Assembly (NCBI RefSeq): GCF_030503435.1
Contig: NZ_JAUKPO010000013.1
Location: 1 to 64,000, forward strand
Reading direction: 5' to 3'
DNA length: 64,000 nt
Source of the DNA: Rhodocytophaga aerolata
GTDB taxonomy: Bacteria; Bacteroidota; Bacteroidia; Cytophagales; 172606-1
The notes beneath the pieces were generated by a model. That model had not been told where the DNA came from, did no database searches, and worked only from the letters and a program-made list of their open reading frames with translations. The translations under genes and the position numbers were made by a program. Numbering within the stretch: the first letter of the stretch is position 1; each line of letters starts with the position of its first letter. This document shows, piece by piece, positions 45,861 through 55,225 of the stretch.

Positions 45861-47168
45861 TTACACTTGTTCTAAGAGGAAGGCTTTCAACTCCTCGAAA
45901 CTGGCAGCCATCGGTATTGATTTTTTTTCTCTACCTAGACAACTGGCAAGCTGGGAGGGCATCGGAGGGTCAATGTGCAGGGTGTCTTTCACTACTTCCC
46001 CAAATTTAGCCGGGTGGGCAGTGCCTAAAATAATACCTTGCACGGCTTGTGTATTTTGTTGCTGATACAGTTGAAAAGCTTTATACGCTACTGCTCCATG
46101 AGGATCAATAATATATTGGTACTGCTCAAAAATATCCTGCATTGTTTGCCTGGTTTCCTCATCCTTTAAACTAAAGCCAGTAATGTGTTGCTGCATTTTC
46201 TGAAGAGAATCACTAAACAAAGTCCGCATTCTGGCAAAATTACTTGGATCACCCACATCCATGGCATTCGAAATGGTAGCCACGGAAGGTTTGGGGCTAT
46301 ATGGGTTTCCATTCAGGTAAAGAGGCACGGTGTCGTTCGCATTGCTGGCCGCAATAAAATGATGTACAGGCAAACCCATTTGCTGGGCAAATAAACCGGC
46401 AGTCAGGTTGCCATAGTTGCCGCTAGGTACAGAAAATACTACCGGATCGCTGCTTTTGCGGCGGAGCTGGGCATATGCATAAAAATAATAAAAAGACTGT
46501 GGTAATAACCTGGCTATATTGATAGAGTTTGCAGAAGTCAGATATAATTTCTCCCGCAAGTGAGCATCAGAAAAAGCGGTTTTGACCAGCCGCTGACAAT
46601 CATCGAAGGTGCCGTCTACCTCCAGGGCTGTAATATTCTCGCCTAAGGTGCAAAACTGCATTTCCTGTACCTTACTTACTTTTCCGGATGGGTAGAGAAT
46701 AACCACATCAATTCCGGGAACTTTATAAAATCCCTGGGCTACTGCACTGCCAGTGTCGCCGGATGTAGCCACCAGAACATACACTTTTTTACCTACATCT
46801 TTTAGCAAGTGAGCCATTACCCTGGACATAAACCGGGCACCTACATCCTTAAAGGCAGCTGTTGGCCCGTGAAAGAGCTCCAGAATGTGTGTGTGTTCAT
46901 TAAGCTGTACCAGCGGAATATCAAAGTTTAAGGCTTCTTCAATAATCTGGGATATTTCTTCTTTTACCAGTTCATCGCCAATAAAGGGCAGGGCAACCTC
47001 TTTGGCAAGCTGGGGTAAACTCATGTCTGGCAGCCTCTTAAAAAAATCATCTGGCAAGGTTGGAATATGTTCGGGCATAAATAAGCCTTTATCTTTGGCA
47101 AGCCCTTCAATTACCGCTTTTTGAAAGGTGGTAGGAGGTGTAAGTAAGTTGGTACTGTAGTATTGCAT
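45861..47168 (-). CDS. thrC: Threonine synthase
   Basis: ThrC turns O-phosphohomoserine into threonine with pyridoxal phosphate. The 435-residue protein begins MQYYSTNLLTPPTTFQKAVIEGLAKDKGLF-like, the normal start. The PLP Lys is in LFHGPTAAFKDVGARF (near residue 111), with ATSGDTGSAVAQGF as the phosphate-binding loop and FSVPSGNYGNLTAG later. It is last in the thrA-thrB-thrC operon, 45 nt after thrB, and is followed by a strong terminator. Confidence 0.96.
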   Translation of the reverse strand: MQYYSTNLLTPPTTFQKAVIEGLAKDKGLFMPEHIPTLPDDFFKRLPDMSLPQLAKEVALPFIGDELVKEEISQIIEEALNFDIPLVQLNEHTHILELFHGPTAAFKDVGARFMSRVMAHLLKDVGKKVYVLVATSGDTGSAVAQGFYKVPGIDVVILYPSGKVSKVQEMQFCTLGENITALEVDGTFDDCQRLVKTAFSDAHLREKLYLTSANSINIARLLPQSFYYFYAYAQLRRKSSDPVVFSVPSGNYGNLTAGLFAQQMGLPVHHFIAASNANDTVPLYLNGNPYSPKPSVATISNAMDVGDPSNFARMRTLFSDSLQKMQQHITGFSLKDEETRQTMQDIFEQYQYIIDPHGAVAYKAFQLYQQQNTQAVQGIILGTAHPAKFGEVVKDTLHIDPPMPSQLASCLGREKKSIPMAASFEELKAFLLEQV

Positions 47169-47213: not shown

Positions 47214-48143
47214 TTATCCGGTAATTACCGGGCCTTTTTTGTTCACCCTGGACACATAAATATCACTATCAATATTCAGGGAGCTGCAAACTTTTTGCAT
47301 AGATTCGGCAATATGGGTGGCTTTATCAGATGAGGTACTGAAGGCAAATAAAGAAGGGCCAGAACCTGAAATATTGCAACCCAGGGCTCCGGCAGTCATG
47401 GCTGCTTCTTTCATATTTTCATAGCCTGGAATCAATACCGAACGGATAGGCTCGATAATAACATCCTGCAGAGAGCGGCCAATTAATCCATAATCTTCCA
47501 TAAATAATCCGGCAATAAGCCCGGCGGTATTTCCCCATTGGGTTATGGCATCCTGCAGCGTAATTTGTTTCCGGAGAACTTTCCGGGCATCTTCGGTTTT
47601 TAACTCAATCTGCGGATGAATAATGCTGCAATATAATTGTTCAGGGGTTGGCAGAGGCACAATATCCAGGGGGCGGTAGCTTCTGATCAGCACAAAACCA
47701 CCGAGTAGGGCAGGGGCTACATTATCTGCATGCGCAGACCCGCTGGCACACCGTTCCCCTTCCATAGCAAAAATTACCAGATCTTTGGTTGAAAGAGGCC
47801 TATCCAGCAATTCGTTGGCTCCAAAAACGGCTGCAGCAGAACTGGCGGCACTGCTTCCAATGCCACTGCCGGGTTTTACCTTTTTCAGAAAGGTAATTTC
47901 GAAGCCCTGTTTACTTTCTAGATGATTCAAAAAAGCCTGAAGAGCTACACCCGACGTATTTTTTTCAGGAGCCAAAGGCATTGAAGTAAAGCTACTCTGG
48001 TTTATGATTCGGATACCAGGTGTATTACTCCTTTTAATAATTATTTCATCGCCGGGTTTTTCTAAAGCAAAACCCAAAATATCAAAACCGGCAGCCACAT
48101 TGGCAACCGTAGCAGGAGCAAAAAGCTTTATTTCTTTTTCCAT
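47214..48143 (-). CDS. thrB: Homoserine kinase
   Basis: ThrB phosphorylates homoserine with ATP. The 309-residue GHMP kinase has APATVANVAAGFDILGFAL at the N-terminus and the ATP-binding loop VKPGSGIGSSAASSAAAVFG (near residues 87-106). SGSAHADNVAPALLGG and the C-terminal GCNISGSGPSLFAF complete the fold. It lies between thrA (69 nt upstream) and thrC (45 nt downstream). Confidence 0.96.
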   Translation of the reverse strand: MEKEIKLFAPATVANVAAGFDILGFALEKPGDEIIIKRSNTPGIRIINQSSFTSMPLAPEKNTSGVALQAFLNHLESKQGFEITFLKKVKPGSGIGSSAASSAAAVFGANELLDRPLSTKDLVIFAMEGERCASGSAHADNVAPALLGGFVLIRSYRPLDIVPLPTPEQLYCSIIHPQIELKTEDARKVLRKQITLQDAITQWGNTAGLIAGLFMEDYGLIGRSLQDVIIEPIRSVLIPGYENMKEAAMTAGALGCNISGSGPSLFAFSTSSDKATHIAESMQKVCSSLNIDSDIYVSRVNKKGPVITG

Positions 48144-48212: not shown

Positions 48213-50660
48213 TTAAAAATCAGCAATACGGATAATATCGGCAAATACCCCGGCTGCCGTTACCGCAGCACCGGCACCAGCACCTTTCACAATTAACGGG
48301 CGGGCTTTATACCTTTCCGTCGTAAATAATACCATATTATCATTACCTTCTACCTGATAAAACGGATGACTCTGATCTACTGTCCGTAAACCTGTTTTAG
48401 CTGTGTTATTTTCATAGACGGCTACATAGCGTTGTCTTCTGCCTTCGCTTTCTGTTTTCCGGCGGATGTTCTCAAAGTATTCATCATATCTGGGCAATAT
48501 CTGGAAAAATTCTTCCACGGAAGTAGCTTTCCGGCAGTCGTCCGGGAGAAAATTTTCAGAAACCACATCCGAAAATTCTAAATTGGCTCCTGCCTCGCGT
48601 GATAAAATGAGTATTTTTCTGGCTACATCCACACCGTTCATATCTATTCTGGGATCGGGCTCGGAATAGCCGAGTTCCTGCGCCTGTTTAACTACACTGC
48701 TAAACGAAACACCTGCCTTGTGTTCATTGAACAAGAAATTTAACGTACCAGATAAAATAGCTTCGATACGGATAATTTTATCGCCGCTCTGGGTTAAGTC
48801 ATTTAATGTTTTGATAACAGGTAACCCTGCGCCAACATTAGTTTCATACAGAAACTTTACTCCTCTGCGGCTGGCTAATTGTTTAAGGTGGCGGTACGTA
48901 TCATAAGGGCCGGAACAAGCAACTTTGTTGGGGGTAACAATGGAAATACCGTGTTTTAGAGCTGCCTCATACAATTCTACAATTTCAGCACTGGCTGTGC
49001 AGTCTACTAGAATACTGTTGCGAAGGTTTAATTCGTGCATCTTTTTGGCAAAGATTGCCCGCTCCATAGGTTCATTCGATGATTCCAGGGCTTTTTTCCA
49101 TTCGGAAAGGTGAATGCCTTCTTCTTCAAAAAACATCTTCCTGCGGTTAGCCACGCCTGCCACACGGATTTCTACGGAGTGGTTGGTAAGCAGATAGTCT
49201 GCCTGGCTTTGCAATTGTTCCAACAAGGTGCTACCTACCAGGCCAGTGCCGATCAGAAAAATATTTAGCACTTTGGTTCCGGAAAGAAAAAAAGCTTCAT
49301 GAATCACGTTTAAGGCTTTCCTGCTGTCTGTCTGGCTAATGACGAAAGAGATGTTATTTTCGGAGGAACCTTGTGCAATCGCCCGCACATTGATGCCATT
49401 TTTACCTAGGGCAGAAAAAAGCCTACCGGATATATTTGGGGTGTTTCGCATATTCTCACCAACAATAGCCAACACACTCTGGCCTTCTTCCACTACTACC
49501 GGTTCTACCTGGCCTGCTTGTAGTTCCCGGCTGAATTCTTCTTCTATCAGTTGTTTGGCTGCCGGTGCATCTACTGGAGCAATAGCCACTGTAATGGAAT
49601 GTTCAGAGGAGGCTTGCGTAATTAATATCACATTAATTCTTTTTCGGGCCAACGCGCTGAACAAGCGCATAGCAAATCCGGAGACACCTACCATGCCGCT
49701 TCCGTTAAGTGTAACCAGGGCTACAGAATCAATAGACGATATACCTTTAATGGCTAAGTTGCTATGTCCGGTTTGCTCGGTTATCAGGGTTCCCGGGGCA
49801 GATGGATTAAAGGTGTTTTTAATCTTCAGCGGAATATTTTTTGCCAGCACTGGCTGCACAGAAGGCGGATATAATACCTTCGCACCAAAGTGGGATAACT
49901 CCAGGGCTTCTTTGTAGGAGAGCTGTTCTAAGGTAAACGTCTTTTTTACTTTTCTGGGGTCAGCCGTCATCATGCCATCTACATCGGTCCATATTTCGAG
50001 AAGGGAAGCATTAATCGCAGCTGCAATAATAGCAGCCGTATAATCGGAGCCGCCGCGGCCCAGGGTAGTAGTTTCATTGAGTTCAGTGGCGCCAATAAAT
50101 CCTGGAAATATCAGAAGGTTTGCGCTTCCGTTGAAATGGTCGGCGATGCGCTTGTAGGTTACCTCGAAATTGACAGCGGCATTTCCGAAGTTATTGTCTG
50201 TGAGGATCAACTTCCGGCAATCGGCTAGTTCGGCTGGCAAGCCTAAGGTTTTAAAATATTCGGTAATAATAGAGGAGTTGAGCCGTTCTCCAAAGCTCAT
50301 CACAAAATCGCGGCTCTTGGGGGTGAGTTCCTTGAGCAGGAAAAGTCCCTGTAATACATCTTCCAGTTCGTTGAGCAATACTTTAACATCTGCCAGCACA
50401 TAGCTCTGGTTATGCACCGGAAGCAACTCACTAACGGCACTCATATGCCTTTTTTCTATTTCTTTAAAGCTCTGAATATAGGTATCGTTTCCCTGGCTGG
50501 CAAGCATGGCTACATTTGCCAGCTGATCGGTAACTCCCGACATGGCTGAAAAAACCAGGGCAACAGGTTCTTGCGCAAGGGCGTCCTTTACAATAGAACC
50601 TACCTTGCGGATCATTTCGGGAGATTTTACAGAAGTGCCTCCAAATTTTAAGACTTTCAT
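48213..50660 (-). CDS. thrA: Bifunctional aspartate kinase / homoserine dehydrogenase I
   Basis: The 815-residue fusion carries out the first and third steps of the threonine branch. The aspartokinase part (1-295) has MKVLKFGGTSVKS at the start, FGERLNSSI, and GRGGSDYTAAIIAAAI. Two ACT-type regulatory segments follow (about 310-450; VALVTLNGSGMVGVSGF and SVLAIVGENMRNTPNI). The dehydrogenase part (about 465-815) begins IFLIGTGLVGSTLLEQL and has PNKVACSGPY and the signature region ARKILILSREAG after GYSEPDPRIDMNG. Domain order matches E. coli ThrA. It is the first structural gene of the operon and follows a leader with an Ile/Thr-rich peptide. Confidence 0.97.
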   Translation of the reverse strand: MKVLKFGGTSVKSPEMIRKVGSIVKDALAQEPVALVFSAMSGVTDQLANVAMLASQGNDTYIQSFKEIEKRHMSAVSELLPVHNQSYVLADVKVLLNELEDVLQGLFLLKELTPKSRDFVMSFGERLNSSIITEYFKTLGLPAELADCRKLILTDNNFGNAAVNFEVTYKRIADHFNGSANLLIFPGFIGATELNETTTLGRGGSDYTAAIIAAAINASLLEIWTDVDGMMTADPRKVKKTFTLEQLSYKEALELSHFGAKVLYPPSVQPVLAKNIPLKIKNTFNPSAPGTLITEQTGHSNLAIKGISSIDSVALVTLNGSGMVGVSGFAMRLFSALARKRINVILITQASSEHSITVAIAPVDAPAAKQLIEEEFSRELQAGQVEPVVVEEGQSVLAIVGENMRNTPNISGRLFSALGKNGINVRAIAQGSSENNISFVISQTDSRKALNVIHEAFFLSGTKVLNIFLIGTGLVGSTLLEQLQSQADYLLTNHSVEIRVAGVANRRKMFFEEEGIHLSEWKKALESSNEPMERAIFAKKMHELNLRNSILVDCTASAEIVELYEAALKHGISIVTPNKVACSGPYDTYRHLKQLASRRGVKFLYETNVGAGLPVIKTLNDLTQSGDKIIRIEAILSGTLNFLFNEHKAGVSFSSVVKQAQELGYSEPDPRIDMNGVDVARKILILSREAGANLEFSDVVSENFLPDDCRKATSVEEFFQILPRYDEYFENIRRKTESEGRRQRYVAVYENNTAKTGLRTVDQSHPFYQVEGNDNMVLFTTERYKARPLIVKGAGAGAAVTAAGVFADIIRIADF

Positions 50661-50726
50661 GGGAGAGTTAAGGTATTAGATGAATGGTATGCCTGAATAC
50701 AAAAATAGACTAGTTTATGAATGAAA

Positions 50727-50748
50727 AAGCAAAAGCCTGGTTTTACTT
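50727..50748 (-). terminator. Candidate attenuator terminator upstream of thrA
   Basis: On the minus strand AAGTAAAA (50741-50748) pairs with TTTTGCTT (50727-50734) around the loop CCAGGC, an 8-bp stem with one G-U pair. More T's follow. It lies between the leader peptide stop (50794) and the thrA start (50660), where an attenuator is expected. The stem is AT-rich and weak on its own, so the exact terminator structure is uncertain. Confidence 0.4.
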
Positions 50749-50786
50749 AATGCGGGACAGTTCCCAGATGACGATATGTGTGCAGC

Positions 50787-50804
50787 CAACCCCCTAAAGG
50801 GTTG
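50787..50804 (-). promoter_or_regulatory. Pause/attenuation hairpin overlapping the leader peptide stop codon
   Basis: CAACCC and GGGTTG form a 6-bp stem around the leader stop codon. The sequence reads CAACCC-CCTAAA-GGGTTG on the plus strand. An outer GCAGC/GCTGC pairing can extend it, leaving the run of Ile/Thr codons in the 20-nt left bulge. A ribosome stalled on those codons would prevent this stem from forming, as in classic attenuators. Confidence 0.5.
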
Positions 50805-50937
50805 TAATAATGGTGATAATAATAGCTGCCGTGCCAATGGAGCTACGATTGGAGATGGTATAAATGCAGGACGATGCTCTTTTTACGGAAGGGCAAATTG
50901 TATAAGAAAAAATATCGAATACCGGCCTTTTAAACAT
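50794..50937 (-). CDS. thrL: thr operon leader peptide (Ile/Thr-rich)
   Basis: A 47-residue open frame starts with ATG at 50937 and ends with TAG at 50794-50796, 133 nt before thrA. Its last residues are TAAIIITIITTL. Eight codons in a row are Ile or Thr (ATT ATT ATC ACC ATT ATT, then ACA ACC). In E. coli the thrABC operon is controlled by ThrL, also rich in Thr and Ile codons, because Ile is made from Thr. Such a run upstream of thrA by chance is very unlikely. The first 30 residues look random, so translation could begin at a later non-ATG codon. A hairpin overlaps the stop codon and a weak terminator-like stem follows. Confidence 0.78.
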   Translation of the reverse strand: MFKRPVFDIFSYTICPSVKRASSCIYTISNRSSIGTAAIIITIITTL

Positions 50938-51029
50938 AGGAGTGCAACTTTACAAATTGTATTTTATAAATCAAATTTATTTTGATAGATAATTTTATGC
51001 TCTTATCTCTTTTCAAGAGAAAGTTGGGT

Positions 51030-51935
51030 TTATTTTACAATGTTCATCTGGCTAAATAATTTATCCAGGTATTCTTCGTCTTCGGAATCTTGTACAAACG
51101 GACCTTTGTATCCTTTTTCTTTGGCGATAGCAGCCACCCGGCCTTGCCCATTTAATAATACATCCGGGATGTGTGAGGCTATGGGGTCCTGATAAGCTTC
51201 TGTAGGGGAAATTATTTTCCAACCTTGGTTACGGATATGCTTCACCAGATCGTCTATAAACAAAGCCGCCAGGTCGTTTTCATGCAGTAATAACACATGC
51301 CTGGGTGACCTTTCTAAATTTTGAATAGCCATGCGATGGTAAAACTGAATACTTTCCCAGATATGCGTAATGTACATAGTTTTTAAAGCCGTATAATCCA
51401 GTTTTTTCTTTTGCGCTAACGCCTGTTGAAACAAGGAATTAATGTACCAGTCATAATTATCTACCGTTACGTAGCCATTGGTGTATCCCAGGGCAGATAA
51501 GGCCTGGCGAAGAGAATCCCGTGTAGGAATGGTCCGTCCTTCATCCAGAAAAGGAAAACGGAACCACGGCCGGAAGTTGGGCATAGTTTCTAACAGCTGA
51601 TGTGCCTGCTGAATGTCTTGAATGTAGGCTTGTGTGCCCAGTACTTTAATTCCCCGGTGGGTATGGGTATGGTTGGCAAGTAAGTGCCCGGCTTTGGCAT
51701 AGGCAAGTAAACGTTGTTTTTTTTCATCACTATCTATATGGCTGGTAGTTGAGAAAAAGGCCACCTCAGCAATGTTAAGTTTTTTTAATTTCTTGATTAA
51801 TACATCAGTCCTTTCGCTGCCTGAGTAATGGTTGCCATCGCCTAACGGTGCATCATCAAAGGTGATGGCAATTTCCTGAGAGTGAGCAAAAAAATAAATG
51901 GTACAAAACAGCAAAGTAAAAAGAGATAGCTTCAT
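51030..51935 (-). CDS. Exported polysaccharide deacetylase family protein
   Basis: The 301-residue protein has a signal peptide (about 1-20, cut near FAHSQ) and a NodB-type deacetylase domain. TFDDAPLG carries the catalytic Asp pair. HTHTHRG is the zinc-binding motif, and RFPFLDEGRT is the third family motif. These enzymes remove acetyl groups from chitin, peptidoglycan or poly-GlcNAc. I chose the ATG at 51935 over 51956 because it puts the signal peptide at the N-terminus. It faces away from the 52071 gene, and three TGTTAA repeats lie in the gap. Confidence 0.88.
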   Translation of the reverse strand: MKLSLFTLLFCTIYFFAHSQEIAITFDDAPLGDGNHYSGSERTDVLIKKLKKLNIAEVAFFSTTSHIDSDEKKQRLLAYAKAGHLLANHTHTHRGIKVLGTQAYIQDIQQAHQLLETMPNFRPWFRFPFLDEGRTIPTRDSLRQALSALGYTNGYVTVDNYDWYINSLFQQALAQKKKLDYTALKTMYITHIWESIQFYHRMAIQNLERSPRHVLLLHENDLAALFIDDLVKHIRNQGWKIISPTEAYQDPIASHIPDVLLNGQGRVAAIAKEKGYKGPFVQDSEDEEYLDKLFSQMNIVK

Positions 51936-55150: not shown

Positions 55151-55225
55151 GGGATGTTAGCTCAGTTGGTTTAGAGCGCCGCCTTGACAGGGCGGAGGTC
55201 ATGGGTTCGAATCCCTTACATCCCA
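55151..55225 (+). tRNA. tRNA-Val (anticodon GAC)
   Basis: The cloverleaf is complete. The acceptor stem pairs GGGATGT with ACATCCC, the D-stem GCTC with GAGC, and the anticodon stem CCGCC with GGCGG around loop TTGACAG, which gives anticodon GAC (Val). The T-loop is TTCGAAT. The T-stem has one T-T mismatch (second pair). The 3' CCA is not encoded; the discriminator base is A. It is a single tRNA gene followed closely by a terminator. Confidence 0.95.

Follow-up and report, generated by a model that had tools for sequence, protein, structure and literature searches.

A leader peptide upstream of thrABC

The threonine operon thrABC of the window (the whole 64-kb stretch of DNA analysed) is preceded by a leader which, judged from the sequences compared, is genuine and conserved well above chance. 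In the reading preferred here, to which a probability of about 0.6 is given, its peptide is translated and ties thrABC expression to the charged tRNA-Thr and tRNA-Ile, with a hairpin at the leader stop codon (hairpin A) as the OFF signal. Thr/Ile sensing by the leader is well supported by comparison and is of a known kind, while the stopping half of the device looks different, at least at the window. An attenuator with the layout of E. coli thrL had been proposed for this region (the original prediction), and this proposal is partly supported, in its leader and hairpin, the E. coli switch being unsupported here. Control of the threonine operon by leader peptides is indicated by the comparisons for several families of Cytophagales, in which RNA regulation has received little study, and a module shared by the thr and his operons, described below, goes beyond the original finding.

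The leader ORF of 47 aa was located on the minus strand at 50794..50937 (ATG at 50937, TAG at 50796-50794), within the 369-nt gap from a polysaccharide deacetylase gene (51956-51030) to thrA (50660-48213), and 133 nt separate its stop from the thrA ATG at 50660; the unannotated minus-strand frame of the original prediction is thus confirmed in coordinates, length and gap. By Pfam, the gene order downstream is thrA, the fused aspartokinase-homoserine dehydrogenase (48213..50660, minus strand; AA_kinase, ACT, Homoserine_dh), thrB, a GHMP kinase regarded by its position as homoserine kinase (47214..48143, minus strand; GHMP_kinases_N and _C), and thrC, the threonine synthase (45861..47168, minus strand; Thr_synth_N, PALP, THR4_C). 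The leader peptide, for which no Pfam family was matched, has the C-terminus AIIITIITTL, encoded by GCT ATT ATT ATC ACC ATT ATT ACA ACC CTT TAG, and the eight consecutive Ile/Thr codons claimed near its end (IIITIITT) were found on the minus strand at 50800..50823, so that a run of product-amino-acid codons stands in a short ORF before the biosynthetic operon. It is the sole run of at least six Ile/Thr codons in all six frames of the 64-kb window.

At the thr leader, Rfam gave no match at gathering score, including RF00506, which we take to be the E. coli thr operon leader thrL, and RF01692; raising the E limit to 5 brought up nothing but P9 and SCARNA7, at chance level (E 2.1 and 1.9), and no Rfam family was found for 18 related loci. 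The window's sole Rfam match at gathering score is a tRNA gene at 55151-55225 on the plus strand.

Conservation in relatives and the wider survey

The window genome (G000, 9.07 Mb) belongs to the same family (f1) as Xanthocytophaga flavus (locus L004 equals L052), and the leader is kept in four of the five same-family relatives with a readable upstream region (G001, G002, G003 and G005), the genomes G004 (no fused thrA at the threshold used) and G007 (locus short of the thrA start) standing outside this count. An Ile/Thr frame was looked for in the orthologous upstream regions and found. Conservation had been proposed as a check for the Ile/Thr run, the stop-overlapping hairpin and a terminator, and it was seen for the first two and not for the terminator, whose AU-rich stem is not conserved in G001. 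This sister species shares with the window the candidate promoter, the peptide start MxKxPVFDIFS, an Ile/Thr-rich end and an identical hairpin, followed in both by ACACATAT; the differences between the two genomes lie in the peptide middle and in the stretch adjoining thrA, the region 3' of CATAT being unconserved between them. The leaders of G003 and G005 end in SIAITIAITTIITTIRP, with the hairpin TCCGCC-CCTA-GGCGGA, and that of G002 ends in CAASVIITL, with the hairpin TACCCTC-TGAG-GAGGGTG.

In G003 and G005, the leader lies 724 nt before thrA, and a 160-aa gene of the DinB superfamily is placed between the two (L004:908-1390, plus strand, and likewise in L003), which in these Xanthocytophaga-like relatives may be under the same control as thrA. 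The same-family metagenome assembly G006 (L010) has thrA and no leader upstream, and the promoter-like block directly before its thrA resembles the block before the G002 leader, as if the G006 leader had been lost.

A wider survey of 218 loci yielded 209 thrA upstream regions, 201 of them distinct, composed of automatic best-hit loci and of 60 regions hand-picked by family. The detector called ORFs of 9-75 codons with at least five Ile/Thr and at least two Thr in the last 16 codons, at least two Ile/Thr in the last six, and the stop codon in a hairpin. It fired in 75 of the 201 regions, 71 of the leaders being at most 250 nt from thrA, a share (71/201) that is no prevalence estimate because the regions are a non-random sample. 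On the reverse strand it fired once in 201 regions anywhere in 900 nt, and in 20 rounds of dinucleotide shuffling on average 3.1 times, or 0.8 within 250 nt of thrA. Three chance or doubtful calls (L009, L012 and L191) were left out of the counts over 72 leaders given below, L012 being included in the 71.

When leaders were chosen blind to the hairpin (at least seven Ile/Thr, three Thr, within 260 nt), 66 were obtained, and a stop-codon hairpin was found in 57 of them, nine being without it, vs 206 of 1064 other short ORFs; with a stricter hairpin score, the counts were 44/66 and 31/1064. The stop codon is wholly within the loop in 67 of 72 leaders, whose stems take 35 forms. Thr (36%) and Ile (22%) account for the last residues over 70 leaders to an extent that fits the operon product, and the median gap from leader to thrA in these 70 is 97.5 nt. 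That the Ile/Thr run and the hairpin arose by chance, for which the shuffle-level folding of the whole leader and the poorly conserved peptide middle might be cited, is contradicted by the shuffle, reverse-strand and hairpin-blind controls and is scarcely credible.

In Spirosomataceae (f10, where L013 equals Runella aurantiaca L087) and several other groups, no such leader was called by the detector, the doubtful L012 apart. The families were handled by number only; f12 is probably Hymenobacteraceae, and f19 appears to be Cyclobacteriaceae-like. Because MAFFT set 12 short stems in inconsistent registers, a formal count of covariation in the stop-codon hairpin was abandoned, and the stem variety and the hairpin-blind control are reported instead; the mixed alignments A1 and A2, with the same inconsistency of stem registers, were not used for models. 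Met occurs among the last codons of some thr leaders (L014, L015, L176, L177, L182 and L169, such as CGMTTTMP and GMMTTITG), which may reflect that methionine is also supplied by this pathway.

Promoter candidates and predicted start

A candidate -7 box TAAAGTTG is located on the minus strand at 50945..50952, with one mismatch to the consensus TAnnTTTG, and ends 7 nt before the leader ATG; a candidate -33 element TTTG (50972..50975, minus strand) stands upstream across a 19-nt spacer. The same TTTG, 19-nt spacer and TAAAGTTG arrangement is present in G001, the promoter block and the leader start being conserved between the two genomes, and G000, G001, G002, G003 and G005 all have a -7-like box whose end lies 4 or 7 nt upstream of the leader ATG. 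Since the TAnnTTTG consensus has been placed at -12 to -5 (PMC9723704), the message is predicted to start 0-3 nt before the leader ATG, in the window near 50940, with a 5' UTR of about 3 nt. If this start is right, the leader would be a (nearly) leaderless message in a phylum relying little on Shine-Dalgarno sites. A sigma-70 scan for the leader promoter was uninformative, as the promoter type differs in this phylum.

It has also been considered that thrABC transcription begins at a promoter between the leader and thrA, the leader then being a relic without influence, as the sequence TATTTTTG (50700..50707, minus strand) before thrA fits TAnnTTTG and has TTTG 22 nt upstream, a possible internal promoter box. 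However, a TAnnTTTG box between leader and thrA occurs in only one of 70 loci, fewer than the 2.4 expected by shuffling, and relics would not retain the codon run and the hairpin across families, so this explanation is regarded as very improbable.

The stop-codon hairpin and the question of a terminator

Hairpin A (CAACCCU-UUAG-GGGGUUG, 50787..50804, minus strand) bears the UAG stop in its loop, in agreement with the claim of a hairpin over the leader stop codon, and has a folding energy of -8.5 kcal/mol (z -1.85), equalled by 24 of 200 shuffles. The 61-nt piece including the outer GCAGC/GCTGC pairing folds at -15.2 (z -2.38; 3/200 shuffles as good). This outer pairing, also part of the original prediction, is not kept in the sister species, where the bases after the hairpin are ACAGC and the pairing is lost. 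In the energy folding suggested for the leader RNA, the entire 274-nt leader folds at shuffle level (z -0.08). The 76 nt 3' of hairpin A do not fold above shuffles either (z +0.61). A small hairpin GGGA-ACUG-UCCC (50754..50765, minus strand) is predicted in the piece 50770-50750 (-5.3 kcal/mol, z -1.68); its letters are also present in G001, where the predicted fold uses those bases otherwise, and the 68-nt stretch around it has a z of 0.02 in the window.

The best terminator-like candidate of the window is a weak AU-rich stem followed by UUUC (50725..50748, minus strand; -4.0 kcal/mol), which the original prediction had taken as the terminator-like element; the stem is at chance (z -0.54), and a scan of 50600-51100 for intrinsic terminators found none. 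The best window fold before a T run reaches -6.6 vs -13.1 in a shuffle, and the pairing of the hairpin A 3' arm with downstream RNA is not above shuffles (p 0.985).

The family f12, where 14 leader calls were kept from 30 loci, presents the textbook thr attenuators (L020, L188, L192, L197-L202, L204, L205, L207, L210 and L213): each of the 14 leaders is followed by a terminator with a T run and a folding energy of -22.5 kcal/mol or lower, whereas 2.4 of 14 shuffles reach -14, and base pairing is possible between the 3' arm of the stop-codon hairpin and the 5' arm of the terminator (CGGGCTGC with GCAGCCCG), with p of at most 0.05 for this antiterminator pairing in 10/14. In the 58 non-f12 leaders, the pairing attains p of at most 0.05 in two, the chance level; terminators of -8 or better were found in 10 of them vs 6.5 expected by shuffling, and strong ones are somewhat enriched (7 vs 2.6 at -10; 2 vs 0.1 at -14). 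The window shares with the f12 attenuators a Thr-rich leader before thrA and the stop codon in a hairpin loop, and differs from them by having neither the strong terminator with a T run nor the antiterminator. Related families seem to execute the same decision differently, f12 by a textbook terminator and the window's family together with f19-like genomes without a recognisable one.

Classic thrL-type attenuation at the window, in which hairpin A would be the 1:2 pair and the AU stem at 50748-50725 a weak intrinsic terminator, is accordingly weighed against two sets of facts. The f12 relatives are wired exactly so, strong terminators are somewhat enriched in the other leaders, and in G001 a terminator-like fold of -12.0 kcal/mol before TTCTCTTT beats all of its 10 shuffles (best -11.2), while the window itself has a stem at chance, no terminator found, a best fold exceeded by a shuffle, and an antiterminator pairing worse than shuffles, this pairing being at chance over the 58 leaders. 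The E. coli layout claimed for the window is therefore unsupported in its terminator and antiterminator as well as in the conservation of its outer pairing, and such attenuation is considered unlikely. Like E. coli thrL, the window has a leader rich in Thr/Ile codons before a gene for a fused aspartokinase-homoserine dehydrogenase and a hairpin near the leader stop; unlike it, the window is without terminator and antiterminator, holds the stop codon in the hairpin loop, and encodes 47 residues vs 21.

The window genome also encodes a trp leader MINQIHNTAWWWRITEPVV with a terminator and a T run before the anthranilate synthase gene (C129:52717-52840, L353), a WWW leader that scores 39.7 bits with Bacteroid-trp RF01692, which is sub-threshold (cut-off 49); the best RF01692 match of this genome is on a contig other than that of the window. 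Bacteroid-trp is also a leader-peptide type element of Bacteroidetes, and unlike this evident terminator with its T run, nothing comparable accompanies the thr leader, which does not match RF01692. This genome thus probably does use textbook attenuation, and that none is seen at thr deserves the more notice.

The CATAT element and the his leaders

Downstream of the stop codon, the window carries CATATCG (50772..50778, minus strand), a CATAT element at stop+18, and so has both features of the module that emerged from the comparison, the other being the UAG in the hairpin loop. CATAT at stop+15 to +28 was found in 31 of the 58 non-f12 leaders, the window included, vs 1.5 in shuffles, and all 31 elements lie at +17 to +20 after the stop; the remaining 27 have no CATAT in the tested stretch. 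The positions stop+15 to +30 of the 58 leaders are C-rich and G-poor (C 0.37, G 0.07) relative to leaderless regions (C 0.20, G 0.18). A second hairpin follows CATAT in many leaders, though weakly as a set (mean z -0.92, with 22/58 below -1; 0.02 in the window).

The layout is repeated before hisG with His codons (HHFHHSS, ATTCCTCC-TAA-GGAGGAAT, then ACATATCGCCC). Leaders, defined by the His pattern and the hairpin, were obtained at 13 of 30 hisG loci, nine of the 13 with CATAT and one with CATAC, in genomes of f19, f12 and f23; the window genome and its family gave no such leader in five hisG loci. These his leaders are like the window in having the stop codon in a hairpin loop, then CATAT, and unlike it in their His codons, different stem and hisG operon.

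Two models were searched against 20 genomes, R1 built on 17 thr leaders and R2 on ten his leaders, and their strong matches were the thr and his operons. Of 14 weak loci inspected, 13 were without the leader layout, and at the remaining one, L296, the stop-codon hairpin is within a frame that is not Ile/Thr-rich. In the window, R2 gave a single match up to E 10, a weak one on the CATAT part of the thr leader (8.4 bits, E 3.3). Among 295 genomes of the class, R2 had matches at E of at most 0.01 in 12, namely six his leaders (one in f12, three in f19 and two in f23) and six that look like chance, the f23 matches being outside the order and before HisG genes by Pfam; R1 matched four of 295 at E of at most 0.05, three f19 thr leaders and one apparent chance match. 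The strict sequence forms of R1 and R2 are therefore limited in range, given so few class-level matches.

We tentatively suggest, as a possibility held at less than even odds, an attenuator class of the Bacteroidota's own that would be common to thr and his operons, with the stop-codon-loop hairpin, CATAT(N)GCCC at a near-fixed distance, and pausing or release of RNA polymerase that needs no U tract and might involve Rho or another factor. The hairpin and CATAT common to both kinds of leaders would then be a short signal for a possible stop of RNA polymerase without a U tract in Bacteroidota. No description of a stop-codon-loop hairpin with CATAT was found in the literature as searched by titles and the beginnings of abstracts, subscription journals being mostly beyond its scope.

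Proposed mechanism

In the preferred reading, transcription would start a few bases before the leader ATG, and the leader would open the message. With ample Thr and Ile, the ribosome would finish the peptide and leave, and hairpin A would fold behind the polymerase, which is probably paused near the CATAT element and would then be released, possibly through Rho or a weak terminator. Under shortage of Thr or Ile, the ribosome would stall on the last control codons and cover the 5' arm of hairpin A, and with the hairpin blocked transcription would continue into thrA. The last codons should matter most, since a ribosome stalled at the beginning of the run would not interfere with hairpin A. A ribosome positioned at a stop codon shields up to 12 nt of the RNA past that codon (PMC4833913). 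The direction of the response would be that of the f12 attenuators, from which it is carried over and in which the folded stop-codon hairpin means OFF because its folding frees the terminator.

That the polymerase pauses near CATAT is an attractive idea, since the pause in the E. coli hisL leader has been reported to be stabilised by hairpins (PMC9291695); the spacer used in that study of E. coli pausing was 10 nt, below the 13-14 nt from the stem to the CATAT end in the window. The C-rich, G-poor stretch after the stop would suit Rho.

Alternatively, transcription might be left unaffected and the leader might instead control translation or the stability of the message, for example by making the thrA start accessible or by supplying ribosomes that reinitiate; this would need no terminator and would in this respect fit the window. 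Short leader genes have indeed been proposed to aid reinitiation in bacteria including Bacteroidetes (PMC4833913). However, reinitiation was proposed there for short gaps, with a peak at 11-14 bp in Bacteroidetes, against 133 nt here and the median of 97.5 nt, and f12 leaders of the same kind are coupled to a terminator, so that such an action is distinctly improbable compared with the transcriptional one preferred here.

Known leader-peptide systems in the phylum

Attenuators, which may include thr, were reportedly predicted in some Bacteroidetes by Vitreschak and colleagues (2004) and by Lopatovskaya and colleagues (2010). In Flavobacterium psychrophilum, a member of the same phylum as the window, 'strong clues' were described for leader-peptide attenuation upstream of amino acid operons (PMC9723704), the main text of that paper having no occurrence of thrA or threonine, while its supplementary tables may list a thr leader. 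Short ORFs reminiscent of leader peptides have been noted in Bacteroides thetaiotaomicron (PMC7366714), and Bacteroid-trp is listed in PMC2864571. According to a statement of 2010, leader-peptide systems had previously been shown in Proteobacteria and Actinobacteria only, before that report's own cases (PMC2965389).

Other leader-like elements upstream of biosynthetic genes

A weak R2 match (E 0.32) was seen at L323 (G002:C2:501892-501953), where CATATTG lies about 114 nt upstream of a gene for a 2-hydroxyacid dehydrogenase (perhaps serA), and no stop-codon hairpin was found at this locus. A second type of his leader, with runs such as HHHHH, was observed upstream of hisG in f19 genera g21 and g48 (L269, L272, L273, L274, L275 and L278), having GGCTTGCC...GGC-type hairpins and T runs and being of the terminator type. 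The stop-codon-hairpin module was not seen in the ilvD upstream regions; several of these (L233, L237, L241, L243 and L245-L248) contain short ORFs ending in SFIILI-like residues, with GAGGC(A/G)CT and later AGTGCCTC, which by these motifs look like branched-chain leaders with long-range pairing.
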